Shown: piece after piece, positions 30,886-61,410 of the stretch
Position numbering within the stretch: position 1 is the stretch's first letter
Layout of the letters: every line of letters starts with the position of its first letter
Source: a virus
Direction: 5' to 3' (one strand)
IMG/VR virus record: IMGVR_UViG_3300003321_000691
Coordinates: 32,001-96,000 of that record
DNA: 64,000 nucleotides
The notes under the pieces: model-generated
Database searches by the model: none
What the model was told of the DNA's origin: nothing
The model's input: the letters and a program-made list of their open reading frames with translations, nothing else
Translations under genes and position numbers: made by a program

Positions 30886-33078
30886 CTACGCGATCTCCTT
30901 GCGGTGCTTCGGGGCCCAGGTGTTCCAGGCTCCGGCGCTCTGCGAACGAGCGCGATTGAGTGCGGCTGCCTCGTCGAGGTCGTCCGCATCGGTCTTCTGC
31001 TGGTCGACGGCGGTCACGGCCGTCTTGCGGGCTTCGGCGAGCGCCTCGGCGCCGGCCGCGGTCTCGACCGCATCCTGACGGGCGCGCTTGAGGGCGCCAT
31101 CGAACAGGGCATCGACGTACGCCTCCGGCTTGTCGGCCGGGACGTCTTCCTTGTCGACATGCTTGACGACGGCGCGCTTGATCTCGATGGTCGACATTGA
31201 GGTGTCGACCTTGGCGCCGGTCTTCAGAGCCTTGGTGATGAGGTCGACGCGAGCAGCGACGGCCTTGTTCTGGGCGTCGGCCGCATCGTTGCGTGCCTTC
31301 TTGGCCTCGGCCTTGGCGGCTTCGAGGTCCTTCTTGAGGCTGGCGATTTCGCCTTCGGCCTTGGCCAGGGCGGTCTCGGCCTTGTCGGCGCGGGCCCTCT
31401 CGGCCTTGATCTTTTCGCTCTTGAGCATGTTGGTGTCCTGGTGGTCGAGGGTCTGGCGGTGCGCCTTCTCGAATCCCTCGCTGGAGATGCCGAAGTGCTT
31501 GGCGCGCTTGGTGATCCGGTTGAAAGCGGCGTGCTTCTCTTCCGGGTCCTTGAAGTCGAACTGGGCGAACCGCGACATCGCGGCGCGGGTGTGGTCGGGG
31601 TCGTGGATGGGCAGGCCCTCGCGGTCGGGCACCGCGAAGCTGGTCGTCGCCATCTTGTGGCGAGCCTCGGCGGTCAACTTCCCGGCGTCATCGTACGAAG
31701 CCGTGTAGGCGTCGTCGTGCTCTTGCTCGTCGTCATCCTGGTCGTCGTCATCCGAGTCATCGTCGGAGTCGTCGTCCTGGTCGTCGTCCTGGTCGTCGTC
31801 ATCCGAGTCATCGTCGGAGTCAGCCTGGGGCTGGCCGTCCATCTGCTCGCCGTGACCGCCAAGGCCGTCTTCGTTCTCGTCGGAGGCAGTCACGTCGTCT
31901 TCGTCGTCGACGTCCGCACTGGAGTCCTGGACCTCTTCCGACTCGGCACCGGCTGGCTTCTTCGCCTTCTTGCCAGGCTTGGCGTCATTCTCGCCACGTG
32001 CGTTGCGACTCGCCTCGTCCTTGTCGTCCGGGTCCTTGTCCGCCGGCTTGCCAGCCTGCGTCTTCGGTTCCTCGTCCGCATCGGTGCGGTCTAGGGCGTC
32101 AGCCATGTTTTGGATAATGGCATGGTTCTTGCATGCGTCAAGCAAGTCCTCGATGCTCGAATAGCCTAGGATGGCCGCGTCCTTCTTGGTGACGTACTTG
32201 GCTAGCTCGGCGTTTCGCTTCAGGTCGGCGAACTTCTGCGCAGCCTGCTTGTGCTCGTACTCCGAGCGCAGGTTCTGGAACTGGACGTTGGGCTTGGCTT
32301 CGCGTTTCGCCGCCTTGTCGTGCTCGGCGGCCTGCGCCTCGTGCTCTTTGGCGCCCTTCTTGTCGCCAGCAGCCTTCGCTGCGGCAGCAGCGGCACGGTG
32401 GAGCGCGGCGGCTTTGTCGTGGCCTTTGCCTGAGCTGTGGGCTTGGATGCTGGCGCGGTTCGCGTCCTCTCCGGCCCGACCGGCGGCGGCCCTACGAGCC
32501 TCAGCAGACGCCTCCCGCGCCGCGTCACTCCACTCGTCCATGACGACGGAGGCGGCGTCCAGGCGGATGCGGGCGCTGTTGCCGGCGCGAGCGGTGTCGA
32601 CGATCGCGATGTGGTTGCCGCGAATGTTTCGCTGGATCGCGTCGTAGTGCCCGTACGTCGGATGCACGCCCGGCACTTCTTCGAGGTCACACGTGTAGCC
32701 GGCGCTGACCTGGTTCTTGTTCGGCAGTTTGCCGACGACGTCGCCGTCGTAGATCGCCAGGTCCCCGCGAACGTGGTCGTCGTCGCGGATGGGGGTGCCC
32801 ATCAGGGCCCCGACCGCGTACTTCCGGGCGTTGTGCGCGTCGAGCATCTCCGGCGGGTGGTCGTCGGTGACTGGCACGCCGTTGAATGAGGACAGTGCCG
32901 CGGTGTCGAACACATCCTCGGGGAGGCGTAGTTCGCGACGGACAGAACCGTCAGGATTCAGGTAGTTGAATACACCACACCGCGTGATGTGGGCCTGGAC
33001 GCGGAGGGTGCCGTCCTCCCGGCGTGTGGCGGGGCGCAGCTCTCCGAGGTCGAGACGTCGGGCGACGCGAAGCATCAC
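30886..33078 (-). CDS. Capsid maturation protease (DUF2213-like) fused to scaffold region
   Basis: The 730-residue product starts at GTG 33078 or ATG 33075. Residues 1-165 carry LPEDVFDTAALSSFNGVPVTDDHP, VRGDLAIYDGDVV and YGHYDAIQRNIRGNHIAIVDTARAG, the DUF2213 pattern of phage prohead proteases. Residues 200-330 are Ala/Lys-rich. Residues 420-450 are almost only Asp, Ser and Gln. From residue 545 a charged coiled coil of scaffold type runs to the end. Protease and scaffold in one chain fits self-cleavage during head maturation. ATG 32106 and the Met in NMLKSEKIKAERARADK could start shorter scaffold-only products. Confidence 0.72.
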   Translation of the reverse strand: MMLRVARRLDLGELRPATRREDGTLRVQAHITRCGVFNYLNPDGSVRRELRLPEDVFDTAALSSFNGVPVTDDHPPEMLDAHNARKYAVGALMGTPIRDDDHVRGDLAIYDGDVVGKLPNKNQVSAGYTCDLEEVPGVHPTYGHYDAIQRNIRGNHIAIVDTARAGNSARIRLDAASVVMDEWSDAAREASAEARRAAAGRAGEDANRASIQAHSSGKGHDKAAALHRAAAAAAKAAGDKKGAKEHEAQAAEHDKAAKREAKPNVQFQNLRSEYEHKQAAQKFADLKRNAELAKYVTKKDAAILGYSSIEDLLDACKNHAIIQNMADALDRTDADEEPKTQAGKPADKDPDDKDEASRNARGENDAKPGKKAKKPAGAESEEVQDSSADVDDEDDVTASDENEDGLGGHGEQMDGQPQADSDDDSDDDDQDDDQDDDSDDDSDDDDQDDDEQEHDDAYTASYDDAGKLTAEARHKMATTSFAVPDREGLPIHDPDHTRAAMSRFAQFDFKDPEEKHAAFNRITKRAKHFGISSEGFEKAHRQTLDHQDTNMLKSEKIKAERARADKAETALAKAEGEIASLKKDLEAAKAEAKKARNDAADAQNKAVAARVDLITKALKTGAKVDTSMSTIEIKRAVVKHVDKEDVPADKPEAYVDALFDGALKRARQDAVETAAGAEALAEARKTAVTAVDQQKTDADDLDEAAALNRARSQSAGAWNTWAPKHRKEIA
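31741..31821 (-). repeat. 30-base exact direct repeat encoding Asp-rich sequence
   Basis: 31741-31770 and 31792-31821 are identical, with a period of 51 bases. They encode the DDDSDDDDQD-type stretch of the protease-scaffold protein. The unit length is divisible by three, so copy number could vary without breaking the frame. Confidence 0.8.
32119..32132 (-). promoter_or_regulatory. TGGCAT-N5-TTGC motif inside the protease-scaffold gene
   Basis: The plus strand reads TGGCATGGTTCTTGC at 32118-32132, within coding sequence and 13 bases upstream of an internal in-frame ATG (32106). The spacing to that ATG is the same as between other copies and true gene starts, which hints at a separate scaffold transcript or product. 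Confidence 0.35.
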
Positions 33079-33813: not shown

Positions 33814-35526
33814 CTATTCCTGGTCTTCGTCCTGGACGGTGTCATCCACTTGATCTTCATCGAGATCTGTGTCTCCGACGAGGTCGTCGGCCAGGTCTTC
33901 ATCGTTCCCGAGGAGGGTGGCGCCAATGTCCGTGTCCTCTTCGCCAGGATCGACCAGGGTGTCCTCATCGTCACCCTCGTCCTCGTCATCGTCGCCGAGG
34001 ATGTCGTCGAGCACGGGCTCGGCGTAGCAGCGGCACTGGTAATCCTCGCCGGGGAGGATGGGTTCGTCCGCGCCCTCCGGCTGGGGTGGGTCGTCGTAGG
34101 AGAAGATTTGCCCTTCCAGGTCGTAGTGACTAGGCAGGGCGTTAGGGTACTTGCCGTCGGGGTTACCACGGACCCGCTCGTCGCGGACGGTGCGCCACAC
34201 GAACCGGCGGATACCTAGCTTGCGCTGGCGGTGGTGATTGACGTCGGCGTAGAGCTTGCCGATCTGGTCGCGAGCGATAAGCCGGGCGTGGCGCTCGGCC
34301 ACCCCGAAGCGCTCCTCGATATCTTCGCGCAGCTCGTCGCTAGGGCGGCCGTTGCGTACGGCTTCGAGCACCAGCTCTTGGAGATCGTCGTGGAGGTCGG
34401 ACGGGATGCGCGAGATCAGCCCGACGTTCTCGCGGACGAAGTCGTCGATGCGCTCGACGGTGTCGATGTCGTCGATGCTGTCCGGGTCGATGCCGATGGC
34501 GTCGTGGAGCTGGTCATGGAGCTGCCGGCGCTGGAACGTATCGGTCTGCTCGGCGAACTGTTTGGCGACCGCGGCAATCTGCGGCTTGTTCGTCGCCTTG
34601 CGCAGGTCCGACGCGGCGCCGTCGATGAGCTTCTGGGCCTTGTGGGATTCTGGGGAGTCTGTGCGTTTTTGTGGTGGCGCAAGTGACACGATCTCGCTCG
34701 TGCCGTATTTGTCCACAGTCACAATCCCGTCGAAGCCTAGGTCTCGCAGGTGCTTCGTTAGAGCGGCGCCGGTTTTGCCGGTCGCTTCGTGTAGCCGTGC
34801 TTTCCAACCTTCCGGTCCGTATAGTGGTCCAGTCTTACCGGACAACGGGATCACCAGAGGAGACTTGAACTTGACGGTATCGACTTCCCAGCCCGGCGGC
34901 GGTGTGTCCTTACCGGGACCGTGAAGCATATATCGTCCATGGGGTTCGATATCCTGGCCGTACTGCCCGGTCTTCGGCGCCTTCTCGGTGTTGTGTAGAG
35001 CGCGAAATTTGACCGGGACACCGGTCTGGAACTTGACGCCGTTTTCCGTGATTTTCGCCAAACCGCCCGACAAGCGCTCGACGAACGCGCGTTTCTCGGA
35101 GCCACCAGCCCCTGTCCAGCGCCCGCTCTCGTCCCGTGGCTCGTCAGGATCGTAGTCGAAACGTTCCTTCCTTTTCTCGGCGAGCTTGGGTACCTCGCGC
35201 AGGACGTCTTTGTACGCCGCGCGGACCCAGCCCATGAGCATGCGCACGAGGCGCGCCGCGTACTGCTCCTCGATACGCAACGGTGGCAGCATCTGCCGAC
35301 CCTTGCGTGGTCGACGCGTACTCGCGTCGCAGTGGACAATCCTACCCGAGTGCAGACGGACGTCGAACGAGTCCTGATGCGGGTGGGCTTTGAACCACTC
35401 GATCTGGCCCAGACGCTTGGCGGCGGCACGCTTGGACTGGTAGCGGCGGGAGAGCCGCTTGCCTGTCTTCTCGCTGAATACCGCCCAGCCCAACCCCGAG
35501 CGACGGACTACGTCAGCGCGGTCCAC
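33814..35526 (-). CDS. MuF-like minor head protein with inserted ART-like domain
   Basis: The 570-residue product starts at GTG 35526. Residues 15-55 (GWAVFSEKTGKRLSRRYQSKRAAAKRL) resemble a small DUF2188-like module. Residues 125-140 hold the linker FDYDPDEPRDESGRWTGAGG. Residues 165-285 (VKFRALHNTEKAP, GRYMLHGPG, VKFKSPLVI, HLRDLGFDGIVTVDKYGTSEIVSL) have the block order of ADP-ribosyltransferase-like phage domains. Residues 415-505 are the MuF domain (ARDQIGKLYADVNHHRQR, FVWRTVRDERVRGN, GEDYQCRCYAEPV). The last 60 residues are almost all Asp and Glu. MuF proteins ride in the virion and are known to carry toxin domains in other phages. Confidence 0.7.
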   Translation of the reverse strand: MDRADVVRRSGLGWAVFSEKTGKRLSRRYQSKRAAAKRLGQIEWFKAHPHQDSFDVRLHSGRIVHCDASTRRPRKGRQMLPPLRIEEQYAARLVRMLMGWVRAAYKDVLREVPKLAEKRKERFDYDPDEPRDESGRWTGAGGSEKRAFVERLSGGLAKITENGVKFQTGVPVKFRALHNTEKAPKTGQYGQDIEPHGRYMLHGPGKDTPPPGWEVDTVKFKSPLVIPLSGKTGPLYGPEGWKARLHEATGKTGAALTKHLRDLGFDGIVTVDKYGTSEIVSLAPPQKRTDSPESHKAQKLIDGAASDLRKATNKPQIAAVAKQFAEQTDTFQRRQLHDQLHDAIGIDPDSIDDIDTVERIDDFVRENVGLISRIPSDLHDDLQELVLEAVRNGRPSDELREDIEERFGVAERHARLIARDQIGKLYADVNHHRQRKLGIRRFVWRTVRDERVRGNPDGKYPNALPSHYDLEGQIFSYDDPPQPEGADEPILPGEDYQCRCYAEPVLDDILGDDDEDEGDDEDTLVDPGEEDTDIGATLLGNDEDLADDLVGDTDLDEDQVDDTVQDEDQE

Positions 35527-35527
35527 A

Positions 35528-36100
35528 TCATTCGTCGTCGCGGTCCGAGTGCATCGGTCCCGGGACAGGCGGCGCGGCCTTCGGCTTCTTCTTGCGGGTC
35601 TTCGCCGGCACGACCTCACCCGGCGCGTCGTGGCTTAGACCCGGCGGCGCCTTGGTTGGGTTCGTGGAGGCGTGCTTGCGAGCGGACTTGATCTTCTTGG
35701 CGACCTTGCCGGGCACGAGTGGACGCCCGTACAGGTCCGGGCCCGTAGCACCGGCCTCGACCGCGTCGCCGTTAAGGACGTTGGGCTGAGGCGGCGTGTT
35801 CGGGTCGGGCGCGGCGGCCTTCTTGGGGTCGTACGCGTCCTGCCGGCTCTTGCCGACGGTTGTGTCCACGACGTCCATGCGGGACGAGTTGGCGTACTCC
35901 GCGACGATCGCGTCGAGGAAATCCTGCCCATCGTCGATGTGCTTCACGCCCTTGCCAGGCAAGTAGAACCCGTCTCGCTCCGCGATCTGGCGGAAGCTGT
36001 CGGAGTGATAGATGGCGTGAATGCCACCTTGCGGGGTCAGGTCGAACTCGGCTAGGACGGTCTCGGTGTCCCAGTTGATAGCTTTGACAATTAGACTCAC
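35528..36100 (-). CDS. Hypothetical head-region protein
   Basis: The 190-residue product starts at GTG 36100. The N-terminal 85 residues look folded (GGIHAIYHSDSFRQIAERDGFYLPG, VAEYANSSRMDVVDTTVG); the rest is Pro-, Lys- and Ala-rich and probably disordered. It lies between two virion cargo genes. Confidence 0.5.
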   Translation of the reverse strand: MSLIVKAINWDTETVLAEFDLTPQGGIHAIYHSDSFRQIAERDGFYLPGKGVKHIDDGQDFLDAIVAEYANSSRMDVVDTTVGKSRQDAYDPKKAAAPDPNTPPQPNVLNGDAVEAGATGPDLYGRPLVPGKVAKKIKSARKHASTNPTKAPPGLSHDAPGEVVPAKTRKKKPKAAPPVPGPMHSDRDDE

Positions 36101-38181
36101 GGGATGCCCTCCATCGCTTTGTTGGCGCGTGCACGGACTTCGGGCGAGTAGGTCACCTTACGCAAGTGGTTCCAGCCCAGGCCGTAGCTGTAGTCATGCT
36201 TAGCATTCTCGATTGCGAGGATGCTGTGGTCCGCTTTGAGATGCTCTGCACGCAGCGCGACATGCTCGATGGCCTCACGCTCGATGCCGGCGGCGTGTAG
36301 CTCGCGAGCGAGATGGGCCGTGTTGATGGACTGGATCTGGTCGTGGGTCGATGGCAGCAGCCCATGGTCGTGCGGAACGTTATCGTATGGGTAGATGAAA
36401 CGCTCCGGCTCACCCTTCGGGAGCGAGAGGCCGTTGTCGATCATGGCCGGCATTTTCCGGCCGTCCGAGGTCGTGGTCACGACCACGTTACCTTTGTGGC
36501 GGTCGCTGCCGCCCATGATGTAGTCGGCTACGCGCATGCGTTCGGCGCCATCTCGGTCAAACGTAGTCGAGCGCGCGTCGGCGAGGACATCGCCGTCCGC
36601 CCACGCGTGGAGGCTGCCCTTCTGGACCTGGCTTCCGCTCGTGTTCGGGAACTCTTTGACCACGCAAGCTGGCACGAGGTCCTGAGCCCCGAGTAGCGGA
36701 GCCACACGTGACACCGCCGCCTCGCGGAGGTAGTAGGTGCCCGGATCGATGTTGCCGCGGGCGAAGCGCTCGCCATCTGCCGGCTTCCAATTGGCTCGGG
36801 TGCCGTCGTCGAGCTTGAACTTCTCCTTACCTTCCATCATGCCTCCGTCGCCATTCGGCTTGCGCTCGGCGATGCTGCGGAACTCCAGCTCCGCGCGAGA
36901 GCCTGGAGAGCTGTCGCGGGCGAGCCCCGACGGCCGTAGTGCGTCACGCTCGGCGTTAGCCTTGTCACGAGCAGCCTCGGCGGCGCGGCGCTCGGCGCGG
37001 GCCTCACGCATCTCGCGATGCAGGTCGCCCGCAGCAACGCTGGCGAGGCTGTGGCTTTGCTGGCCGGCCTTGGCCCACGCTTCGTTGGCAACCTGCTCGC
37101 GGGCGAGCGCGACCCCGGCGGCAACCTGGGCCTCGTTGGCAGCCTTCTGCGCCGCGGCGAACTTCTCGGCCTTCTCCTTGCGGACGGCCTCGGCCTTGAT
37201 CGCCGCTTCCATGCGGGCGACCTCGGCCTCCTTCTCCTTGGCGACCTGCTCGCGGACACGCTCGCGGACGGCGCTCTCGCGCTCGGCGTTCTCACCTAGC
37301 TTGGCGTTGTTGCGGACGGCACGTTCCTCGCGATCACGGATCTCCTTGGCTCCGGCGGTCAGTTCGTGGTCCGGGAAGTTCTGCTGGCCTGGGAGCGTGC
37401 GTGCGGCGGAAGGCTCTTGGCCCTCCTTGGCGGCCCGAGCGTTTTCCTCCTCCAGGATCTTTCCACCCCGCACCTTCATTGCGTACGGGTCCATGCCGGA
37501 CGCTGCCTCGTACTCTTTGCCCCACAGCCCGCGCTTGTAGTCGCGACCTGGCTGCTTGAACGCCTCACGCGCCTTGTCGGCCTCGCGCTGGGCGTTGTAG
37601 TCGTTGCCGAAGCCGGCCGCGACCTTCTCTTTGGCAGCGCGCTCGGCCTCGCGTTGGGCGTAGCGAGCCTCGCGGGCCTCGCGCTCGGCCTTCTCCTTCT
37701 CCGCACGCTTCTTGGCGAAGGCCTCGGCGCGCTTGCGTCCGGCAGCGGCGTCCTTCTCCTTCTTCTCCTTGTTGAAGGCCGTCGTACCGATCTCGGCCTT
37801 GCGCTTCGCGACGTTCGCCGCGCGTGCGTTCTTACGCTTCTCGATCGCGGCAGCCTTGCGTTCGGCCGTGTTCGGCGCCGCCTTGGCTCCGCCGGCCTCC
37901 GCAAAACGCCCCGCTTCGTCGCGTGGGTGCTGGGACTCGTCGAAGTCGTCCTGCCGGTGCCCTTGCTGCGGTGCGTCGGGCGCAGCATACACGTAGGCCG
38001 GGTCGCCCGTCTCGGCGCAGTGGTCACGGCGAGCACGCTCGGCATCGTCCGCGTTGTCCCAGTGCGACACGAGATAGAGCCCCTCACCGGGCGGCTCTTG
38101 GCGGTCAACGGCAACGACATTGAAGCCGCGCTCGGGCGTCAGCGCCTTGATCTGTGCGAACGCGGCGTCAATCCAGCTCAT
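36097..38181 (-). CDS. Coiled-coil protein with C-terminal PI3/4-kinase-like domain
   Basis: The 694-residue product starts at ATG 38181. Residues 75-90 hold the linker DDFDESQHPRDEAGRFAEAG. Residues 95-430 are a very long Lys/Glu/Ala/Arg coiled coil. Residues 440-680 hold a kinase-like fold: ANWKPADGERFARG (nucleotide-binding Lys), YYLREAAVSRVAPLLGAQDL and VPACVVKEF, GGSDRHKGNVVV (catalytic loop, DRHxxN) and MIDNGLSLP (metal-binding DNG). The block order matches the phosphatidylinositol 3-/4-kinase-like family best known from actinobacterial proteins. It sits between the MuF-like gene and the HD hydrolase. Whether the target is lipid, protein or nucleotide cannot be told. Confidence 0.65.
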   Translation of the reverse strand: MSWIDAAFAQIKALTPERGFNVVAVDRQEPPGEGLYLVSHWDNADDAERARRDHCAETGDPAYVYAAPDAPQQGHRQDDFDESQHPRDEAGRFAEAGGAKAAPNTAERKAAAIEKRKNARAANVAKRKAEIGTTAFNKEKKEKDAAAGRKRAEAFAKKRAEKEKAEREAREARYAQREAERAAKEKVAAGFGNDYNAQREADKAREAFKQPGRDYKRGLWGKEYEAASGMDPYAMKVRGGKILEEENARAAKEGQEPSAARTLPGQQNFPDHELTAGAKEIRDREERAVRNNAKLGENAERESAVRERVREQVAKEKEAEVARMEAAIKAEAVRKEKAEKFAAAQKAANEAQVAAGVALAREQVANEAWAKAGQQSHSLASVAAGDLHREMREARAERRAAEAARDKANAERDALRPSGLARDSSPGSRAELEFRSIAERKPNGDGGMMEGKEKFKLDDGTRANWKPADGERFARGNIDPGTYYLREAAVSRVAPLLGAQDLVPACVVKEFPNTSGSQVQKGSLHAWADGDVLADARSTTFDRDGAERMRVADYIMGGSDRHKGNVVVTTTSDGRKMPAMIDNGLSLPKGEPERFIYPYDNVPHDHGLLPSTHDQIQSINTAHLARELHAAGIEREAIEHVALRAEHLKADHSILAIENAKHDYSYGLGWNHLRKVTYSPEVRARANKAMEGIP

Positions 38182-38720
38182 GAGGCAGACTCCAACAACT
38201 TGTCGAGATGGCCGATCATGGCCGGAACAGCAATCGTCGCGACGTAGGAGGTGTCACCGTCGGGAGCGTGGTAGTTGTAGAGCCCGAGGCCGTGCTTGAA
38301 GCCGTCGTGCTCCTTCCGGTACATCTCGACCGCGGCGCCCCCGTTCGAGACGTTCGCGATACGGTCGGCGAGCTTGAGCGCGGTGGCCCTGGGTCCCGCA
38401 GCCCGGATCTTGGGATAGGTCAGCGCGGCTCGGGTCTTCCGGTTCGGGCCGGGTTCGTTGGTGACGGCCGAAACGAGCGCCCCGACCTCCTCCCCGAAAG
38501 CCTCCTCGACGTCCCGCACAGTCGCGTCGGTGTCTTCTGGCGCGTCGTGGAGCCAGGCGGCCGTCCGCAGCGCCAGGTCATCCCCACAGAAACGCACAAT
38601 CACTTCCTCGACCTTCGCGAGGTGGTGGGTGTACGGCAGGGGGCCGTAGAGTTGGCCCTTCCGGTGCACGTGGTGGTACGTGGCGAAGGACTTAGCGGCG
38701 TGGAGGGGGTCGATTTTCAT
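38178..38720 (-). CDS. SpoT/MESH1-like HD hydrolase, putative (p)ppGpp hydrolase
   Basis: The 180-residue product starts at ATG 38720. AAKSFATYHHVHRKGQLYGPLPYTHHLAKVEEVIV gives the first metal-binding His residues. RTAAWLHDAPEDT gives the HDxxED motif characteristic of alarmone hydrolases. FGEEVGALVSAVTNEP, AAGPRATALKLADRIANVSNG provide the remaining conserved blocks. It lacks synthetase, TGS and ACT domains, so it is a small alarmone hydrolase. It is encoded 47 bases downstream of the portal gene, whose product ends in a RelA/SpoT synthetase domain, and has its own promoter with an operator-like palindrome. An antidote or immunity role is the simplest reading. Confidence 0.8.
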   Translation of the reverse strand: MKIDPLHAAKSFATYHHVHRKGQLYGPLPYTHHLAKVEEVIVRFCGDDLALRTAAWLHDAPEDTDATVRDVEEAFGEEVGALVSAVTNEPGPNRKTRAALTYPKIRAAGPRATALKLADRIANVSNGGAAVEMYRKEHDGFKHGLGLYNYHAPDGDTSYVATIAVPAMIGHLDKLLESAS

Positions 38721-38739
38721 GGCTTCAGCTCACATATCC

Positions 38740-38771
38740 AATGTAAGCACGGATCTAGTTGACGCAACTAG
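38740..38771 (-). promoter_or_regulatory. Promoter of the HD hydrolase gene with operator-like palindrome
   Basis: On the minus strand TTGCGT (38767-38762), a 16-base spacer and TACATT (38745-38740) resemble the other promoters in the window. The perfect inverted repeat CTAGTTG-ACG-CAACTAG (38755-38771) covers the -35 element and the stop codon of the portal gene. This arrangement would allow a repressor to control the hydrolase separately from the head operon. Confidence 0.55.
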
Positions 38772-41734
38772 TCCAAGCACCCGAAAGTACTGTGCAAGAT
38801 AGGTGGGCACGGAATGGGTTCCGAGGACTTACCCGAATCGAGTGCGTAGTAGTGGTCCGACATCTTGGCGGCGTAGGCCTGGATCTCCGCCTTGTGCTCG
38901 GCCAGTGTCTGTTTCTGGCTGTCGTTCACCGGCTTGTAGATGTCGTGGCACCAGTCACCCCACTTGTCCTCGCGCGGCGTGCGGACCTGGATCTCCTTCA
39001 TCAGACCGTCGTGGTCCTTGATGGTGAGGTGCACCGAGCGGTACCCGCCCTCTTGGGGCTTCTCGATGTAGTTGGACTCCTCGACGACGTGGAAGTGCCG
39101 CTTGATGGCGTCGACGTTGGCGTGGACCCCGGCCACGTCCTTGGCGATCATGCGGAACCCGGTGCCATCCCAGAGGTCGCCCGGCTTCTGGTACTTCGGC
39201 TTGCGCTCCATCTTACCCAGCGCGCTCTCCAGCTCCTTGACGCGGCCCTTGACGGCCGTGCCTGGCACAGCGATCTCCTGGAGCTTGGCCTCGGTGCCGG
39301 CGAACGACGCGCGGTGCTGGGCGAGGAACTCGTGCATCGCCTGCCTGTGCGCCTCCACGCGGGCCGAGAGCTTGATCGGGCCGTGGCCCGAGCCGGAGCT
39401 GGTCGGCGTCATCGGCGAGCTGCCACCACCCGAGGTCCACTTGCCGCTGGGGTCGCGTGCCTCGTTCTCGTCGTAGTCGGCACGGACGCCCTGCTTGGCG
39501 AAGTACTCGCGGATGGCGTTGCCACCCTCGACCGTCGACGACATGTCGAAGTCGACGTAATCCCCGCTAGTGTTGCGGGACTGGAGGTGCTTGGTCAGGT
39601 CCTCGACCTTGGCGGAGCCGAGCTTCTCGGCCTTCCACGCGCCGCCTTGCGGGAAGCTGTAAACCACGCTGCCGTTGCCGCCGCTGCGCTTCTGCGCTTC
39701 GCGGCCGACCAGGTGCTCGTCGTCGGAGCCGGAGGTGCGCCGGCCCTGGTTCATGAAGGCGTACTTGCCCGGATTGTCGCCGAGCGTGACCTTGTACGCG
39801 GTCACGGTGTCGCCATAGCCACCGGCTGGTGCGGGGCCGTCGCCTTGGGCACGGCCGATGTGACCGGCCACCGCGTTCGCGTTGCCGGCGTTCTTGTTGC
39901 CGAGATCGGCGCTCTTGCCCGAGCCGAGGCGGTAGACCACGAACGAGTCGCCCGCCTTTGGCTCCTTGTCGCCGGTCTCGTCACCCGAGTGGGTGAGTGG
40001 TGCGCCCGATGCAGTCCACCGCCCGCCCTCGTCGCGCGGGTGCTTGGCCTCGTCGTAGTCATCGGCACGGAATCCGCCGGTGCGTGGCACGCGGAATGGG
40101 TTCTTGCCGGCGCGGTCACCGTTGGCCTGCACATACGGCTTGGGCGGAGTCTCTGGGTCGGGGGCGGCCGGCTCACCCGGAGGCGTGGTCGGATCGGACG
40201 GATCGAAACTGCCCGGCGGCGGGGGCGGCTGATACTCCGGGTCGAGCCTGCCCATCGCACGGAGGTCGTCCTCGGTGACCGGGCCAGACGCCGCGGCTTC
40301 CTGGTTCTCACGAGCGTCGAAGTCGATAGTGATCTCGGGGTTCCACTCGCCCGAGCCCCAGTGCGAGTTGGCCACTTCCTCGGCGGACACGACCTGGCGG
40401 TCGAGCCAGATGGCGTCGGCCTGGGCCGAGACGAGCATTGCCTGGGCGCGGTCCTTGGCGCTCTCCTGCCACAGAGGCTTAAAGCGGACGTTCCACTTCG
40501 GCGGCTCTTTCTTGTCGCCGGTCGTGCGGAAGATGATCTTGATGAGCTGCGTGAGCTGGGGGAGGAGCTTCTCGCGCTGGTACGCGGCGACGCGGTCGTA
40601 GAAGAAGCGGATGTCGCTCTCGCCGGTGGCGTTGAGGCCACTGGGGCTGGTGCCGAACAGAAGCGTGAGCGGCATGTCTGCCGACGCGGCGAGGCGCGTG
40701 GAGAACTTGTCCATCAGGTCCGGCAAGCCGGCGATGGGGGTCTGCGTGCGCTGATAGTCGTCGTCGGAGTCGATGACCGTCGCATTGATCGTCGACGACG
40801 CCATGTCCATGGCCCCGAGGCGCTCCTGGAACAGGGTCGCGCCATCCTCGGACGCGAGCGTGTCCCACAGGTCCTTCATCTTGTAGACAGCCTTGGCGAA
40901 CTCCGAGACGAGCACACCGGCCGAGCCCCACGCGAGGTTGAAGTCGCGAAGGACACGCCACATGCGGACGAGCACCGAGTCGCCCCAGCCGCCTTGCGCC
41001 GCCATCGTTTGGTACCGGCTCACGCGCTGGCCAGGGAACACCAGGAGGCGGCTCTCGTGGATGTCGAACACCGTCTGCGAGTATTGGCCGCCGGCCGGGG
41101 GCAGAATGGCGCGAGAGGTCAGGCGGTAGATCTCGGGCTGGCCGTACTTGGGGGCCCGAGGGTCGGCGTAGCCGTAGACCGGATACAGCTCTCGCGGCTC
41201 CAGCGGCGTCAGCCAGTCGAGCGAACGTACCTTGTCGAGGTCGAGCGGCTTGGTCAGGTCGGTCTGACCGTCGTTGGCGCCGATGAGGACCGCGCCACCG
41301 CCAAGGCCGCGCTCGTACGAGAGGCCGACGCGGATGATGTGGTTCGCGCCCAGGACGTCGAGCTTGTCCAGGACTTCGGCGACGCGGTCAGCCTCGGCCT
41401 GGCCGTCCGCCTCTTCGTCGTCGGTCTCGGGGATGACGACGTCGTAGCCCTCGCGGAGGGCTTCCTTGGGCATGGTCTCGACGGCGCGGGCCGCGAGGTC
41501 ATCGCCACGCCACAGCTCGGCTAGTTGGTCGAAGGTGAGCGTCGCTGCGCGGAAGGAACTGCCCTCGCGCTTGTCCCGGCCGTAGACGCCCAGGCCCGTG
41601 AACGCGTTCATCCATCCAGCGTCGATACGCCGGACCTTCGGCTTGCCTCCTGGGTTGCCGGAGCTACCTGGGGCGAACTTTCCGCCATCGGTGCGTGCCG
41701 GCTTCTTCGGACCCTTGGCCATGGCAAGAACCAT
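38768..41734 (-). CDS. Portal protein fused to ART-like and RelA/SpoT synthetase domains
   Basis: The 988-residue product is far longer than DUF1073 portals, whose domain spans about residues 35-490 here (FDQLAELWRGDDLAARAVETMP, LYPVYGYADPRA, ESRLLVFPG, PLTLLFGTSPSGLNATGESD). A Pro-rich stretch and the linker DDYDEAKHPRDEGGRWTASG (about 562-580) lead to an ART-like segment (590-745; SFVVYRLGSG, NANAVAGHIG, VTAYKVTL, DDEHLVGREA). A second linker, DYDENEARDPSGKW, ends near 765. Residues 789-935 are a RelA/SpoT domain with GRVKELESALGK (829), LWDGTGFRMIA (855), GGYRSVHL (about 897), EIQVRT (about 915) and a late HDIYK. All blocks of an active pyrophosphokinase are present. Start ATG 41734 or 41722. 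Confidence 0.82.
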   Translation of the reverse strand: MVLAMAKGPKKPARTDGGKFAPGSSGNPGGKPKVRRIDAGWMNAFTGLGVYGRDKREGSSFRAATLTFDQLAELWRGDDLAARAVETMPKEALREGYDVVIPETDDEEADGQAEADRVAEVLDKLDVLGANHIIRVGLSYERGLGGGAVLIGANDGQTDLTKPLDLDKVRSLDWLTPLEPRELYPVYGYADPRAPKYGQPEIYRLTSRAILPPAGGQYSQTVFDIHESRLLVFPGQRVSRYQTMAAQGGWGDSVLVRMWRVLRDFNLAWGSAGVLVSEFAKAVYKMKDLWDTLASEDGATLFQERLGAMDMASSTINATVIDSDDDYQRTQTPIAGLPDLMDKFSTRLAASADMPLTLLFGTSPSGLNATGESDIRFFYDRVAAYQREKLLPQLTQLIKIIFRTTGDKKEPPKWNVRFKPLWQESAKDRAQAMLVSAQADAIWLDRQVVSAEEVANSHWGSGEWNPEITIDFDARENQEAAASGPVTEDDLRAMGRLDPEYQPPPPPGSFDPSDPTTPPGEPAAPDPETPPKPYVQANGDRAGKNPFRVPRTGGFRADDYDEAKHPRDEGGRWTASGAPLTHSGDETGDKEPKAGDSFVVYRLGSGKSADLGNKNAGNANAVAGHIGRAQGDGPAPAGGYGDTVTAYKVTLGDNPGKYAFMNQGRRTSGSDDEHLVGREAQKRSGGNGSVVYSFPQGGAWKAEKLGSAKVEDLTKHLQSRNTSGDYVDFDMSSTVEGGNAIREYFAKQGVRADYDENEARDPSGKWTSGGGSSPMTPTSSGSGHGPIKLSARVEAHRQAMHEFLAQHRASFAGTEAKLQEIAVPGTAVKGRVKELESALGKMERKPKYQKPGDLWDGTGFRMIAKDVAGVHANVDAIKRHFHVVEESNYIEKPQEGGYRSVHLTIKDHDGLMKEIQVRTPREDKWGDWCHDIYKPVNDSQKQTLAEHKAEIQAYAAKMSDHYYALDSGKSSEPIPCPPILHSTFGCLD

Positions 41735-42617: not shown

Positions 42618-43108
42618 TTGGTCCTCTTGGTCTTCTTCGTAGCACGCTTGAGGCCGGGGCATCCATGTTTCGCGGCCCATCGCTCGAATGCGGCCTCATC
42701 CTGGCGGTTCCAGCTAGATAGTACGTAATTGAACACGTGCATGGCATCCGCCACGTGGTTCACATAATGTCCGGCTTGCCGAGCAATCGCGCGTAGTGCT
42801 GAGTCGGTCAACCGACGCATCCAGATCACGCGACGCGAGCTGCCAACGAACTTGCGGTCTTTGTGTGTGGTGGCGCCACCGACGACGACGCGACAGAGCC
42901 AGGGACGGCGTTCTTTATTCGGTCCCTTCTGGGCCAACTCCCACATGCAGTGGAGGATGGACGTCGCGGCGTGCATACCGTGATGGCATAGACGTGGCTT
43001 GCCAGAAACGCGCAAGGTTTTGCCAACCTCGACGCGCCTGCCATCGCCGTAGTTCAGGCGACGGTTAGCCCCGACCAGGTGCCAACCCAAGCGCGTGTGA
43101 CCCTTCAC
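42614..43108 (-). CDS. DUF7666-like hypothetical protein
   Basis: The 164-residue product has GWHLVGANRRLNYGDGRRVEVGKTLRVSG, LCHHGMHAATSIL, CRVVVGGATTHKDRKFVGSSRRVIWMR and LRAIARQ. This order of WHxVG, LCxxGxHA, DKxV and R-V-W blocks is that of a phage family I associate with DUF7666. A basic Lys-rich tail is added. Function unknown. Confidence 0.5.
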   Translation of the reverse strand: MKGHTRLGWHLVGANRRLNYGDGRRVEVGKTLRVSGKPRLCHHGMHAATSILHCMWELAQKGPNKERRPWLCRVVVGGATTHKDRKFVGSSRRVIWMRRLTDSALRAIARQAGHYVNHVADAMHVFNYVLSSWNRQDEAAFERWAAKHGCPGLKRATKKTKRTK

Positions 43109-44193
43109 TTGCTCCTCCGTGCCTTGATGATCGCCTTGACCAAGGCGACCTTGCCGCCGGGGAGCTTGCTCGCGCCGACGATCTTGAGATGCGTGGCGTA
43201 CACGCGGAGGCTGTCGATGGTCTCGTCGATCAGCTTGCGAGGGGTGAGCTTGGCGAGCGAGCGGACCGACTTCACCTCGACGTTGCGTGTCTTCTTCGGC
43301 AGGTTCTCCGGGTCGATGACGTACAGATCGGGGTGGTAGTCTTCGCCACGATCGGTCTGCTCGTCACCCTCGGCAAACTCGTCCGCCTCCTCTTCGGCAG
43401 AGGTCGGCTCGGGGATGTCACTCGGGTCGGCCACCGTGTCCGGGAGGTCGACGCCCACGTCGAGGCCCACGACCTCGTACTCGCAGACGCGCATCTTTTG
43501 GAACGAGGAGTCCTTCGGGATGCACACCACGTTCTCTGGCTTCACGCGGCAGATGACCGTCTGGCCTTGGCCGAACCCCCGAGCGTACTCGGCGGCGCCG
43601 ACGTGCAGACCCTCGTGGCACGGGGTGTCCGCATCATCGGAGATCTTGTTGCGGTCCATACGGATGACCGCACCCGGCGCGTTCGAGATCGTGCCCGAGT
43701 GGCAGTCGAGGAAGTCCGACCTCACACCCTTGTACGCGAGGAACGTGCCGTCCTGCTCGATCGGGATCCCGATGTGCTGGAGGAACGGGTAGAGCTGCTG
43801 GACCGACCGCCAGCTCGGGTTCTGCTGGAGGCGTCCGAAGAAGCGGAGCAACGGACGGGGGTCTTCACCCCTGGACGCCATCGCCGACGCCCGAGTCTGG
43901 AACCCCTCCGGGAGAGGCTCGCCTTTGAACGTGATGGCACCGTTGTCGTTGACTGCGAAGCCGTCGAGCAACGTGTTGAGCGTGTGGTCATCCGTCGACT
44001 GCGACAGGTACGAGAGCAGCGCTCCACCGCGGGTGGTCGACTGCATGATGAGATCCCAGTTGGGGTCGTCCTTGCCCAGCTCGACGCGAATGATCGCGTA
44101 CTGGGTCGTGCCCTTTTGGAAGACCTTGGGGGCGCCGTCGATGATCAGCGTGACGGAGTCGGGGGTCAGGTTGAACGGGATAGGTTGCATCAC
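43105..44193 (-). CDS. rIIB: RIIB-like protein
   Basis: The 362-residue product starts at GTG 44193, overlapping the RIIA stop. LYPFLQHIGIPIEQDGTFLAYKGVRSDFLDCHSGTISN, VIRMDRNKISDDADTPCHEGLHVGAAEYARGF and VICRVKPENVVCIPKD are characteristic of T4 RIIB homologues. An acidic linker and a basic C-terminal domain follow. RII proteins of T4 overcome the lambda Rex exclusion system; here the role is presumably protection against a host defence. Confidence 0.82.
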   Translation of the reverse strand: MMQPIPFNLTPDSVTLIIDGAPKVFQKGTTQYAIIRVELGKDDPNWDLIMQSTTRGGALLSYLSQSTDDHTLNTLLDGFAVNDNGAITFKGEPLPEGFQTRASAMASRGEDPRPLLRFFGRLQQNPSWRSVQQLYPFLQHIGIPIEQDGTFLAYKGVRSDFLDCHSGTISNAPGAVIRMDRNKISDDADTPCHEGLHVGAAEYARGFGQGQTVICRVKPENVVCIPKDSSFQKMRVCEYEVVGLDVGVDLPDTVADPSDIPEPTSAEEEADEFAEGDEQTDRGEDYHPDLYVIDPENLPKKTRNVEVKSVRSLAKLTPRKLIDETIDSLRVYATHLKIVGASKLPGGKVALVKAIIKARRSK

Positions 44194-46364
44194 ACTTCCT
44201 CTTTCTTCTCAGCGTTGAAACGGTCGACGAGCTGGATGTATTTCGCCCAATTCGCGAGGCGCTCGTCACGCTCCTTACGATGGTTGTAGTTCCAGATGAT
44301 CTCGATCCCGCCGTCGCGATACTCGCCCGCTTCCTTGAGCAGCGGGTACGCCGCGGAGATGGCCTCGTAGGCTGCCTGGGCCTCGCACGCGCCTTGGTGC
44401 ACCCCGTTCGCGCGGCCGAGGTCCAAGAGCACTCTGCGGGTTTGGCCATGAACTTCCTTGATGCGTCGCGCAGAGCGCATCGAGTTGCGGACGTACTGCG
44501 AGATGATGTGCTTGCCGCCGAAGGTCTTGATGACGCGGCCCAAGAACTTGTCCGGAGCCGACGAGGCGGGGCCGATCTCCGCCCAAAGGATCTCCTGGAT
44601 GGTACTCATGCGCTCGGGGGTCGCGAGACCCGCAAGCCACGTCTTCCGCCAGACGCTGTACTCGGTGCCGGCGAGCTTGCTGCGGTCGAGCGGCTTCTTG
44701 TGCGTCTCCTTGTACCCGAAGATGGTCGGCATCTCGACATCAAGCGCGTCGGCGATGGCCTTGTCCTCGCGGTAGGTGTTGTAGAACCCGTCCGAATCGA
44801 ACTTCTCCAGGACGACGTAGACGTCGCTATCCTCCGGGGCGCGAGTGACCGCTTCCCAGTGGTCGGAGTACGGCTTGGTGAACCGGGTCGAATTACCCTT
44901 GAATGAGAACATCATCGCACGGTGCTTGGCGCGAAGCTCGGGCGACTTGAAGCCCGGCACGAACGGGGCGTTGAAGTGAAGTGTCGACAGACGGGCGACA
45001 CGTGCGCCTTCGAGCCGGCAAGCCTTCAGGGTCGCGGTGAGCGTGGCTTCGAGCGCTGCGGTCTCGGCCTCGGTCGGAGCAGCCTTGCCTTGGTTCTTGG
45101 CGCGGACCACGTAGTCGAAGTGATCGAGTGAGTAGCCCGCCAGCTTCTTGCCCGTGTCATCGATGAGGAACCGGAGAGCCTTGTCGACGGTGACCTGATT
45201 GGTCGTCGCGTCGTTGCGCACGAGGCGGAACGGGCCGCCGCTCTTGCCGTCGGGGCCAATGTCGCTGTCGTCGAACAGCTTGACCCAGCTCTTGCCAAGG
45301 TCTTGGTATTCGTCGGGCAGATCGAGGTCCAGCTCCTGGAGCACGCGGACCCGGAGACGCTTTTGCCAGTCTGTCTCGGCGTCGCCGTCGAGAATTTCGA
45401 GTGCCTTGGATACGAACTCGTCGACGAGCGTCGTGAACTTCTCGACAAGCGCGTCCTTGGTCTTCTGGGTGTAGCGCAACTCCTCACGCGAGCCGGTGAA
45501 GTGGACCGCGCCCATGTCGAAGCGAAGCACGCCGGAGAGCTTGTGGAGACAGCGGTGCTCCTTCGGAAGCGTCAGCTCTTGGAGGCGCACGCGGTACGGG
45601 ACGCAGCCCATGACTGCGACCCAGCCGCCGAACGGGTTCGCGCCGCCTTCCTCGAAGCTGTAGTTGATCTCGCCCGAAGCCAGTGTCACGCGCTGATCCG
45701 GCGCAGCCGGCAAATCGGTGTTGATGGTCGGACGCGGCTCGAAGAAGCGGTAGAGCGCCTTGGCCTTCTGACGAAACTCGTACTCGTCGTCAGGTTGCGT
45801 GGCGATGACGATCTCGACGCCGGTATCGGCCGGGTCCCACGCCTCCTCGGCGAGTAGGTTGATGACGCCGCGGTCACTCGGGTCGAGCGAGGCGACGTAG
45901 GTGGACCTGAAGCCGCAACGCGGGCCCTCGAAGTCCGGTGTGAACATCTCGGCGTGACGGGAGATGACCGTGAAGCTGTCGGCGTACGAGAACGCCGACT
46001 TGGAGCCGATTCCGAGCATGCCGACCGCATCGTCGCGGTCGCGCTTGGTCGAGGCGCCGTACTGGGTGAAGACGTTGAACACGTCGTCCCGAGAGAGTCC
46101 CGGGCCCGAGTCCTTAATGCGCAGATACCGGTCGTCATCGGTTGGCAGGTGCACTTCGATCGGCACGTGGCCACGGCCGGCGACGCGGTTGGCGTCCCAG
46201 GCGTTGGCGCTGTACTCGCGGAGCACGGCCAGCTTCTTGTCGCTGTAGAGCGTGTCGCGGAGAATGCCCATGATGTGGGCCTCGTCCGCCTTGGAGATGC
46301 CGAAGCTCACGCCCGCGACAGCGCCGCCGACAGCCAGAGTCCGGTCAGTCTTCTGGGGTCTCAT
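44190..46364 (-). CDS. rIIA: RIIA-like protein with GHKL ATPase domain
   Basis: The 724-residue product begins at ATG 46364. LREYSANAWDANRVAGRG gives the N box (Glu and Asn) and LRIKDSGPGLSRDDVFNVFTQYGASTK and MLGIGSKSAFSYADSFTV the G boxes of the GHKL ATPase fold. The long remainder matches the layout of T4 RIIA. It is translated with RIIB through a GTGA overlap. A promoter-like sequence lies directly upstream. Confidence 0.85.
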   Translation of the reverse strand: MRPQKTDRTLAVGGAVAGVSFGISKADEAHIMGILRDTLYSDKKLAVLREYSANAWDANRVAGRGHVPIEVHLPTDDDRYLRIKDSGPGLSRDDVFNVFTQYGASTKRDRDDAVGMLGIGSKSAFSYADSFTVISRHAEMFTPDFEGPRCGFRSTYVASLDPSDRGVINLLAEEAWDPADTGVEIVIATQPDDEYEFRQKAKALYRFFEPRPTINTDLPAAPDQRVTLASGEINYSFEEGGANPFGGWVAVMGCVPYRVRLQELTLPKEHRCLHKLSGVLRFDMGAVHFTGSREELRYTQKTKDALVEKFTTLVDEFVSKALEILDGDAETDWQKRLRVRVLQELDLDLPDEYQDLGKSWVKLFDDSDIGPDGKSGGPFRLVRNDATTNQVTVDKALRFLIDDTGKKLAGYSLDHFDYVVRAKNQGKAAPTEAETAALEATLTATLKACRLEGARVARLSTLHFNAPFVPGFKSPELRAKHRAMMFSFKGNSTRFTKPYSDHWEAVTRAPEDSDVYVVLEKFDSDGFYNTYREDKAIADALDVEMPTIFGYKETHKKPLDRSKLAGTEYSVWRKTWLAGLATPERMSTIQEILWAEIGPASSAPDKFLGRVIKTFGGKHIISQYVRNSMRSARRIKEVHGQTRRVLLDLGRANGVHQGACEAQAAYEAISAAYPLLKEAGEYRDGGIEIIWNYNHRKERDERLANWAKYIQLVDRFNAEKKEEV

Positions 46365-46642
46365 TCTTCCTCCGCCACTACAGTAGGGATAGTGACGCTT
46401 ACTGGCAAGTCCAAATCGTTCGCCCGGGCGGTCCGATTGCCGAATCCGGCGATCCCGGATTGTCGATGCCAGGCAACCCACGCCGCGCGGGACATGCCGC
46501 GCTGCGGAACCTTGCCGGCGAAGAAGTTGATGCGAGCCTGCGCAGCTACGATCGCCGCCGGGTTTCCGCTGGCGGTCGCGCGACGCGCCATCTCGCCCGC
46601 GAGCGCGTGCGGGGATAGAGCATAGAGGGCGCGGGGGATCAC
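46361..46642 (-). CDS. Hypothetical protein
   Basis: The 93-residue product starts at GTG 46642. A helical N-terminal part (LAGEMARRATASGNPAAIVAAQARINFFAG) is followed by a GMSRAAWVAWHRQSG motif. No family is recognised; the 3' end contains the rII promoter. Confidence 0.5.
   Translation of the reverse strand: MIPRALYALSPHALAGEMARRATASGNPAAIVAAQARINFFAGKVPQRGMSRAAWVAWHRQSGIAGFGNRTARANDLDLPVSVTIPTVVAEEE
46380..46408 (-). promoter_or_regulatory. Promoter upstream of the rII genes
   Basis: On the minus strand TTGCCA (46408-46403), a 17-base spacer and TACTGT (46385-46380) fit the promoter family of this phage. The expected start would leave a leader of about ten bases carrying GGAGGA directly before the RIIA ATG. 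It lies within the end of the preceding gene. Confidence 0.45.
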
Positions 46643-49085: not shown

Positions 49086-49114
49086 TTGCGCACGGCCCGC
49101 ACCGTGCCTACTGT
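49086..49114 (+). promoter_or_regulatory. Promoter upstream of the 572-residue gene
   Basis: TTGCGC (49086-49091), 17-base spacer with ACGG...CCGT half-sites and TACTGT (49109-49114), preceded by TTTCCCC as at the other plus-strand promoters. Transcription should start near 49121, leaving GGAGG just before the ATG. Confidence 0.7.
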
Positions 49115-49127
49115 GTCTGTGGAGGAC

Positions 49128-50846
49128 ATGATGGACCCGACGCTTCTGGAACTAGACCTCGACAAGCCGGCCGGCAAGGCTCCGGCCGCGATCAAGATCC
49201 CGGTGCCCTCGGCGCCCGAGCTTGACCTCGTCGACGACCCCAAAAACCTCGTCTGCCTCGACTGCGGCGCCAAGGGCCCGGTGAACGACGGCAGCCTGTG
49301 CGAGGCCTGCTACAACAAGGCCAACGCTCCCGCGGAGGTCGCCGAGGCGGCCTCGGACTTCGCCGACATCGCCGCGAATGCCGCGGAAAACGCAGCCATC
49401 ACGGGCATCGCGAATCTCGGCGCGAACGGCCTGGCGAATCTCGGCGTCGGCTTCAACAACGCAGACGGCTACATCGAGATGCTGCGCCGTGGTGCCGCGG
49501 ACGCGACCGTCGCGGAGTACACCCGGACGCTGCGCGACCGCTACGGCTACGACGTCAACGTCGCGGTCGATAACGGACGCTACACCATCACGCTGACCAA
49601 AGACGGCAAGTCCGAGACCATCTCCAACACCTTCATGACGGTGATCGCCGGTAACGGCGGTTACGAGGGCCCGGAAAGCCACGTCAACGATGACGCCATC
49701 GCCCTCCTGAAGGCCAAGACTGCGGCGGCCAAGGCTGCCAAGGCCAAGGCGGACGCCAACGCCCACAACGGCCTGGTCATGGCTCCGGCGGAGGCCGCTC
49801 CCGCGGTCCGAGCGCTGCGCCACGGCGACCTCGTCGCGGGTGGTGTCGCCGAAGGTAACGGCATCCTGACCCACTGGACCGGCCAGAAGCCTCTAACGCT
49901 CGCGACACTCAACGAGTACTGCGACGCGGCCGAGATCCCGACCAAGTTCCGCCCCAAGGCGAAGAAGTTCGAGACCCAGGCGAACCTGGCCGTCAAGGAA
50001 GTCGGCACGGAGCTGGGACTCGATGTCCGCCGCGAGAAGAAAAAGGACCTCGTCAAGGGTGACGTGGCGTACGACCGCCGCTGGTTCCTCTCGGAGCCGA
50101 ACCTCGAAGCGGGCGCGGGCGACGCGTCCGGCAAGGTGGTCCTGGTCGTCACGCTCGACGATGACACCCTGAAGTTCGACGTCGAGAGCGACGCGGCGGT
50201 CAAGATCGCCGAGAAGTTCACGGACCTCTGCGGGCGCGAAGTGCTCCAGGCTGGTCACATCACGACCTGGCTCGGCGCGGTCATCCGCGACTGCCTCGGC
50301 GGTGTGAAGTACGGCGGTAGCTGGTACATCCCGCGCCACACCCGCGCGGCCGGTCAGAAGATCATCGCGGCGTTCGCGCCCAAGTGGGGCACGGAGTGGA
50401 TGAATCCCCCGCTCCCGATCGCGACCTCGGCCGAGCTGGCCGCGGGTATCGCGGCGGGCCTCGCGGCGGAAGTCGACGAGACCTTGACCGAGCTGGCCGC
50501 GGCGGCCAAGAGCTGCAAGGACGGCAAGGTCGGCGAGAAGGCGGCCGTGACCTACCTCGGCAAGTTCAAGGCTCACGGCGAGCGTGTGCTTGCCTACGCC
50601 CAGTTGCTCGGTGACGCGTTCGTCGCGACCAGCAAGCAGAAGGTCAAGGACGCGGTTGCCAAGCTCGAAGGCTCGCTCGACGGCGCCAGCATCCGCTACG
50701 CCCTCGCGATGGAGGAGGCCGAGAAGGACCTGCTCCGCGACCAGGAGAAGATTGCCGCGGACCTCGCGGCGCTCGATGCGGAACCCGGCGCCATCGAGGC
50801 GCGGTTCGAGAACCTCGACATCGCGACGGAGAGCGCCGATGCCTGA
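49128..50846 (+). CDS. Large early protein with zinc finger, possibly DUF6744-related
   Basis: The 572-residue product starts at ATG 49128 or 49131 behind GGAGG, directly downstream of its promoter. Residues 45-70 hold CLDCGAKGPVNDGSLCEACY, a zinc finger. Residues 140-195 are beta-rich. The central part ends in GHITTWLGAVIRDCLGGVKYGGSWYIPRHT, which resembles a phage family I associate with DUF6744. The C-terminal 150 residues form a helical bundle. High expression is likely, but its function is unknown. Confidence 0.6.
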   Translation: MMDPTLLELDLDKPAGKAPAAIKIPVPSAPELDLVDDPKNLVCLDCGAKGPVNDGSLCEACYNKANAPAEVAEAASDFADIAANAAENAAITGIANLGANGLANLGVGFNNADGYIEMLRRGAADATVAEYTRTLRDRYGYDVNVAVDNGRYTITLTKDGKSETISNTFMTVIAGNGGYEGPESHVNDDAIALLKAKTAAAKAAKAKADANAHNGLVMAPAEAAPAVRALRHGDLVAGGVAEGNGILTHWTGQKPLTLATLNEYCDAAEIPTKFRPKAKKFETQANLAVKEVGTELGLDVRREKKKDLVKGDVAYDRRWFLSEPNLEAGAGDASGKVVLVVTLDDDTLKFDVESDAAVKIAEKFTDLCGREVLQAGHITTWLGAVIRDCLGGVKYGGSWYIPRHTRAAGQKIIAAFAPKWGTEWMNPPLPIATSAELAAGIAAGLAAEVDETLTELAAAAKSCKDGKVGEKAAVTYLGKFKAHGERVLAYAQLLGDAFVATSKQKVKDAVAKLEGSLDGASIRYALAMEEAEKDLLRDQEKIAADLAALDAEPGAIEARFENLDIATESADA

Positions 50847-61330: not shown

Positions 61331-61337
61331 AAAATCG

Positions 61338-61409: not shown

Positions 61410-61410
61410 A

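Follow-up and report, generated by a model that had tools for sequence, protein, structure and literature searches.

A phage portal protein with a C-terminal RelA/SpoT-type synthetase domain that is encoded in an exchangeable effector island together with a probable immunity hydrolase

The window analyzed here is a stretch of 64,000 bases (bases 32001-96000) of a 107,904-base IMG/VR virus record, and its element of interest is a minus-strand portal gene whose product ends in a RelA/SpoT-type synthetase (SYNTH) domain. A gene for a small alarmone hydrolase follows directly downstream, and the portal gene sits in a head module together with the genes for a MuF protein, a protease and the major head protein. 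The two genes are organized as follows (window coordinates; the basis of each assignment is given in parentheses).

38768-41734, minus strand: portal protein with C-terminal extension, 988 amino acids plus stop codon (open reading frame [ORF], Pfam, PHROG)
40265-41617, minus strand: portal core, residues ~40-490, Phage_portal_3 (Pfam; ~72% identity to the portals of sister phages introduced below)
40010-40063, minus strand: linker motif 1, DDYDEAKHPRDEGGRWTASG, about residues 558-575 (sequence)
39470-40012, minus strand: middle cargo-like domain, residues ~575-755 (homolog in MuF protein L047)
39425-39487, minus strand: linker motif 2, RADYDENEARDPSGKWTSGGG, about residues 750-770 (sequence)
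38771-39379, minus strand: RelA/SpoT synthetase (SYNTH) domain, residues ~786-988 (Pfam, model, fold search, catalytic positions)
38178-38720, minus strand: MESH1/SpoT-like small alarmone hydrolase (HD_4), 180 amino acids (Pfam, phmmer against the PDB, residues)

The N-terminal part of the fusion matched the Pfam family Phage_portal_3 (PF06381) at residues 70-441 (E value, 8.5e-78; 262 bits versus a cutoff of 33.8), and the PHROG portal match extended to residue 491 (E value, 8e-100). The portal domain thus ends where an earlier note on this DNA had placed its border, near residue 490. The continuous portal-RelA/SpoT reading frame described in the same note was borne out as well: the ORF runs from 41734 to 38768 in a single uninterrupted frame, third-position GC content was 0.88 in the portal core, 0.88 in the middle region and 0.91 in the synthetase, and second-position GC content deviated in the two short linkers only. 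Since codon-position GC content stays coding-like along the ORF, there is no sign of a break in the frame. The sequence comes from a metagenomic virus contig without end repeats, a circumstance in which the fusion might be an assembly chimera or a misjoined gene; however, this is highly improbable given the unbroken frame with its constant codon usage, the position of the domain junctions at linker motifs, and the presence of a separate fusion of a portal-like protein to SYNTH, with the same CPP...GCL tail, in a different virus. The middle domain matched neither a Pfam family nor an entry of the phage collection, and the sole homolog found for it lies between two linkers of a MuF protein (L047; 32% identity; E value, 8e-11). 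Inspection by eye (VYR...) had suggested an ADP-ribosyltransferase (ART)-like domain, but no such claim is made, as a two-sequence AlphaFold2 model was poor (predicted local distance difference test [pLDDT] score of 44.8) and the phage collection held no match.

Residues 830-931 matched the family RelA_SpoT (PF04607; E value, 1.1e-16; 61.6 bits versus a cutoff of 27), which was the only RelA/SpoT match in the whole record, and all synthetase blocks quoted previously are present. A phmmer search of the PDB retrieved YwaC, YjbM and RelP. An AlphaFold2 model of residues 770-988, computed with three subfamily members as input, reached a mean pLDDT of 76.5, and all PDB entries that matched it in Foldseek at E values of ≤1e-3 (47/47; probability, 1.00) were RelA/SpoT-type synthetases, including RelP, YjbM, RelSeq, CapRel and the type VI secretion system effector Tas1. 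The template modeling scores of these matches were modest (about 0.35 to 0.5), so that the assignment of the RelA/SpoT fold, which agrees with the original reading of the domain, rests on the sequence profile and the Foldseek probability jointly. The catalytic positions were compared in an alignment of four members that are 31 to 37% identical overall (the window protein, L014, L016 and Pro-Nvie1-6). Residues R62, K64, K72, R75, K76, D87, R92, Y129 and H133 (domain numbering) were invariant in all four, as were E145, Q147, R149 and T150. We take R62, K64, K72, R75 and K76 to be the R/K cluster of the ATP site, D87 to be the Mg-binding residue and Y129 to be the G-loop residue. The positions expected of a RelA/SpoT enzyme (ATP-site R/K, Mg-binding D, G-loop Y, catalytic E and RT) are therefore all conserved. 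An absence of catalytic residues at homologous positions, which the earlier note would have counted against its reading, was not observed.

A profile of the four members scored the solved synthetases in the order YwaC (1.4e-23), RelP (8e-23), YjbM (1e-21), FaRel2 (4e-8) and CapRel (5e-6). This ranking, with the canonical (p)ppGpp synthetases first, favors a (p)ppGpp-type enzyme, with the reservation that overall similarity does not settle the substrate. It is quite possible that the domain is instead of the toxic small alarmone synthetase (toxSAS) type and modifies tRNA or makes (p)ppApp, which would fit either of the sites of action discussed below: Apk2, which has the most similar architecture, makes (p)ppApp only (PMC12226406), and alarmone hydrolases can neutralize several toxSAS products (PMC11782079).

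The hydrolase gene starts 47 bases past the portal stop codon and at its other end runs into the next gene, with its stop codon overlapping the start of that gene; a search for a sigma-70-like promoter ahead of the hydrolase gene found none. The 180-amino-acid product matched HD_4 with 37.5 bits (cutoff, 27.2), its nearest PDB entry was MESH1 (2.8e-13), and it keeps the metal-binding and catalytic residues H33, H58-D59, E62-D63, D119 and N123. We consider it the probable immunity partner of the portal-borne synthetase. The gene is absent from both sister records, in which the portal carries an ART as cargo.

The sister records (L007 and L008) were retrieved at 75% identity with the major head protein; they look alike in this region and thus count as one case. 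Comparison with them involved the following features.

34660-40250, no strand assigned: effector island without DNA similarity to the sister phage, flanks 70 to 76% identical (DNA comparison)
36097-38181, minus strand: 694-amino-acid cargo-like protein with a linker near residue 86 and a PI3/PI4-kinase-like C terminus (Pfam, pattern)
35528-36100, minus strand: 190-amino-acid protein within the island (no PHROG match)
33814-35619, minus strand: MuF head protein (MuF residues 412-532) with a linker near residue 161, followed by an insert (Pfam, PHROG, pattern)
30886-33078, minus strand: DUF2213 head maturation protease, candidate processing enzyme (profile matches)
28843-29910, minus strand: major head protein, the query used to find the sister phages (PHROG annotation, IMG/VR search)

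DNA identity to the sister was 76% in the portal core (40251-41602) and within 70 to 76% in the MuF core (34013-34659) and nearby head genes, whereas the sequence from 34660 to 40250 had no detectable similarity, the replacement spanning exactly the distance from portal core to MuF core. The island thus has both of its borders within structural genes, one in the portal gene and the other in the MuF gene. The sister portals are ~72 to 73% identical to the window portal through the core, but their C terminus is an ART (ADPrib_exo_Tox, 2.1e-17), and the sister MuF protein bears an inorganic pyrophosphatase (InPase, 1.8e-32). Both ART and InPase are established types of virion cargo or toxin (PMC5512222). 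As judged from this comparison, the portal C terminus, the hydrolase, the kinase-like protein, the small gene and the MuF insert make up one island and are exchanged together. The feature by which polymorphic or polyvalent virion effectors are recognized, a conserved carrier with exchangeable enzymes, was thus found here as RelA/SpoT versus ART on ~72% identical cores, and in this swap nature has already provided an experiment on which cargo a portal can carry. The MuF insert of the window (33814-35619, residues ~155-300), which follows the linker, occupies the place of the InPase of the sister phages.

Portals with 39 to 42% identity (L011 and L012) and that of MW202816 stop after the core, and the C-terminal extension is thus not general to the portal family. 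These data also bear on a structural use of the fold, in which SYNTH would decorate the portal crown and either have no catalytic activity or sense nucleotides. Such a role might be suggested by the attachment of the domain to a ring that is itself structural and by the location of the relatives found, on or beside head proteins; however, we regard it as improbable, because the catalytic residues are invariant in four of four divergent members and because the region, replaced by an unrelated enzyme in the sisters and absent from the 39 to 42% identical portals, is not needed for portal function. The middle cargo-like domain, the two linker copies, the downstream hydrolase and the fact that the cargo is exchangeable had not been part of the earlier note. 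With an adjacent hydrolase and exchangeable cargo, the locus appears as a modular effector island rather than a lone oddity.

The cargo is preceded by a linker of the form [FY]DxxxPRDExG[RK]WTxGGG (here called the PRDExGRW linker). The pattern [PA]R[DEA][EPA]xG[RKE][WF] occurs four times in the whole 108-kb record, always within the island (twice in the portal, once in the kinase-like protein and once in MuF), and four times in the 17-kb region of the sister, again always in the island, compared to 0.003 copies expected when the residues of the proteins predicted in the window are shuffled; as the pattern was written after the copies had been seen, these numbers describe a concentration and do not amount to a formal test. 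A stricter pattern, PRDExG..WT, retrieved at least 94 distinct occurrences from IMG/VR DNA with a consensus of about K-[FYD]-D-P-D-[QE]-P-R-D-E-x-G-[RK]-W-T-[DS]-G-G-G, which is informative at the flanks only, because the search itself prescribed P, R, D, E, G, W and T. Among the Pfam matches listed for 77 linker-bearing ORFs were Phage_Mu_F (at least 8), ADPrib_exo_Tox (at least 7), Phage_portal and ART-PolyVal (at least 6 each), capsid and prohead protease (at least 4 each), Portal_Mu, topoisomerase IB and zeta toxin (at least 3 each), and 2H (at least 2). When ten linker ORFs with a recognized effector were scanned singly, the effector lay C-terminal to the linker in most, and the linker recurs in other viruses ahead of ART, zeta toxin and topoisomerase IB domains; in L014, the linker precedes an S-adenosylmethionine (SAM)-lyase-like protein. 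The exact linker strings, searched as literal strings, were not found in open-license literature.

The linker may be a packaging tag, a cleavage site or a cassette junction, all of which are compatible with the sequence. Tentatively, it could be a general tag or processing site that loads interchangeable enzymes into tailed-phage heads, whether on portals, on MuF, on protease-capsid fusions or free; the portal-RelA/SpoT fusion and the hydrolase would then form one cassette, and the portal ring would be a programmable effector platform. The shared linker is a concrete candidate for the feature through which cargo is selected and released by heads. Three further linker-bearing loci are recorded here as separate observations. 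A single polypeptide with the linker near its N terminus comprises both a prohead protease and a capsid domain (L058:1897-5445). In another protein, a type IB topoisomerase domain comes after the linker and may represent a head-carried topoisomerase (L020:10523-11539). A 1683-amino-acid portal polyprotein (L063:1796-6847) contains Hint/LAGLIDADG (intein-like), 2H and PI3/PI4-kinase-like domains, the last of which resembles that of the protein at 36097-38181 in the window, and a linker-tagged ART follows the polyprotein.

Whole-protein and domain scans of IMG/VR, as well as scans with two- and four-member alignments, yielded no relatives of the fusion; relatives were reached via the major head protein, a portal alignment and IUPAC patterns. 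Two such patterns, describing the SYNTH G-loop and catalytic strand, retrieved two stand-alone enzymes plus L014 and L016 only. The L016 protein (L144:4099-8304; record G002, an 80.7-kb virus) has 1401 amino acids, with a portal-like N terminus, a long acidic linker and SYNTH at the extreme C terminus, where it ends in a CPP...GCL tail as the window protein does. Its N terminus is 21% identical over 390 amino acids (E value, 9e-8) to the portal of the Nitrososphaera provirus Pro-Nvie1, which itself matched Portal_Mu (8.6e-8), and we consider it with moderate confidence to be a second, unrelated portal. This portal part is nearest to the portal of a thaumarchaeal provirus. The 1292-amino-acid protein of L014 (L014:5038-9530) is encoded directly after a portal gene and shows a subthreshold match to MuF (0.0051) and another match to the phosphoheptose isomerase family (HAD-like); it further contains SYNTH and three more linker-separated modules, and the linker-tagged SAM-lyase-like protein follows it. 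In Pro-Nvie1, SYNTH is a separate gene that overlaps the portal gene. All close SYNTH relatives found in virus records were at head-gene positions, and the subfamily is thus a repeated occupant of the portal/MuF position among viruses that are not related to one another, one of them archaeal. As a separate observation, the gene for a linker-bearing 312-amino-acid protein with a weak RelA_SpoT match (E value, 0.011) precedes an HD hydrolase gene on an unrelated contig (L041:9159-10857); a synthetase-like/hydrolase pair thus occurs there without a portal.

The locus probably encodes a portal-borne polymorphic effector together with a probable immunity hydrolase. We propose, with a probability of about one in two, that the portal carries packaged and delivered cargo of the alarmone synthetase type, while the hydrolase protects the producing cell. 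The portal would be the carrier, with an ordinary ring-forming core to which exchangeable enzyme cargo is joined C-terminally by PRDExGRW linkers, the cargo of this phage being the middle domain and the small-alarmone-synthetase-type SYNTH domain. In known structures, the C termini of portals point into the capsid, which makes enclosure of the cargo most likely, and up to twelve copies would be kept inside the head. Cleavage of the linker or some other step, for which the DUF2213 protease might be responsible, would free the cargo, and the enzyme would enter the next cell along with the DNA. It would then move pyrophosphate from ATP to the 3'-OH of GDP/GTP (most likely), ATP/ADP or tRNA, and host growth, translation or defense would be depressed as infection starts. 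In the producing cell, the MESH1-like hydrolase would clear the product, so that the cargo would spare phage production before packaging. In assuming delivery with the DNA, alarmone synthesis and self-protection by the hydrolase, this proposal is patterned on what has been published for MuF toxins (PMC5576092, PMC12226406) and for polyvalent proteins (PMC5512222). If the cargo is delivered, an alarm-signal or tRNA-blocking enzyme would enter the cell with the DNA, fixed to the ring through which the DNA passes.

Several observations weigh against delivery with hydrolase protection. To our knowledge, portals are not ejected but stay in the head after ejection, so release or processing must be assumed, for which the DUF2213 protease and the linkers are candidates. 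An IapK-type second immunity gene was not recognized, no IapK model having been used. The L014, L016/G002 and Pro-Nvie1 relatives had no neighboring hydrolase in the sequence examined, and the synthetase-hydrolase pair is thus not universal. Finally, the record yielded neither an integrase nor a resolvase and does contain RII genes, which makes a virulent cycle probable; the phage is probably not classically temperate, unlike MuF toxins. The main rival explanation is that the enzyme is not delivered but acts in the producing cell, where the late portal fusion, or a piece released from it, would raise alarmones during assembly and tune host shutdown, lysis timing or the exclusion of other phages, with the hydrolase as a counterweight. 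The adjoining synthetase and hydrolase genes, the retention of portals in the head and the probable virulent cycle would all fit such a role. We nevertheless consider it rather unlikely, because the sisters place ART and InPase, typical injected cargo, at the same positions, because the linker is common to many head proteins, and because an assembly-time role requires no portal fusion.

RelA/SpoT domains on MuF were predicted in 2012 (PMC3482391; see also PMC5576092), and the biochemistry of a MuF-fused domain has been characterized for Apk2 (PMC12226406). Thus, while the fusion, the domain identity and the intact catalytic residues of the initial interpretation stand, its statement that RelA/SpoT domains of phages are known only as stand-alone toxins does not. 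The idea that the synthetase forms part of the portal ring and may be delivered is plausible and agrees with the published view of fusions to MuF and portal proteins (PMC5512222, PMC5576092). Apk2 is a MuF-fused (p)ppApp synthetase accompanied by the hydrolase Aph1 and by IapK immunity (PMC12226406, PMC11699363). Like the window protein, it is a RelA/SpoT-type synthetase placed C-terminally on a head-vertex protein, in a head module and with an HD alarmone hydrolase beside it; however, the carrier here is the portal, the N terminus being portal and MuF being a separate gene, IapK and integrase genes were not recognized as stated above, and the SYNTH profile is nearest to (p)ppGpp synthetases. 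In the MuF polymorphic toxins (PMC5576092, PMC3482391), a conserved head-protein carrier likewise bears exchangeable toxins, including RelA-like and ART domains, the latter also described on MuF in Bxa (PMC11699363), whereas the exchangeable island described here runs from the C terminus of a portal to the MuF insert.

Portal fusions to 2H, PBECR and inorganic pyrophosphatase domains have been published (PMC5512222), and the polyvalent proteins treated there similarly carry effector enzymes on portal or MuF that are thought to be packaged and injected; the accessible text contains no RelA/SpoT domain on a portal, no hydrolase partner and no PRDExGRW linker. The toxSAS FaRel is also paired with a small alarmone hydrolase (ATfaRel; PMC11782079) but is not fused to a virion protein, and a second type II antitoxin was not recognized at the locus described here. 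Pro-Nvie1-6 (FR725450) belongs to the same SYNTH subfamily (34.5% identity; E value, 9e-24), but its gene overlaps the end of the portal gene without fusion. No published portal-RelA/SpoT fusion was found in open-license text, although Fig. 5C of PMC5512222, which depicts RelA/SpoT architectures, could include one. As far as open-license text shows, the RelA/SpoT domain on a portal, the hydrolase neighbor, the swap of portal C-terminal cargo and the shared linker are new, and they take the principle embodied by Apk2 beyond MuF, to the portal, and tie it to an adjoining hydrolase.

The phage further encodes a contractile-tail sheath as well as RIIA and RIIB; the RIIB-like and RIIA-like genes are adjacent (43105-46481), a short distance upstream of the portal region. 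Among the proteins tested, none was identified as a terminase. A plus-strand ORF of 586 amino acids (49086-50846) has a strong coding signature without a Pfam or PHROG match. The window contains 17 tRNA genes, which form an array on the minus strand (61246-63887) that is overlapped by an HNH endonuclease ORF (62190-62960).

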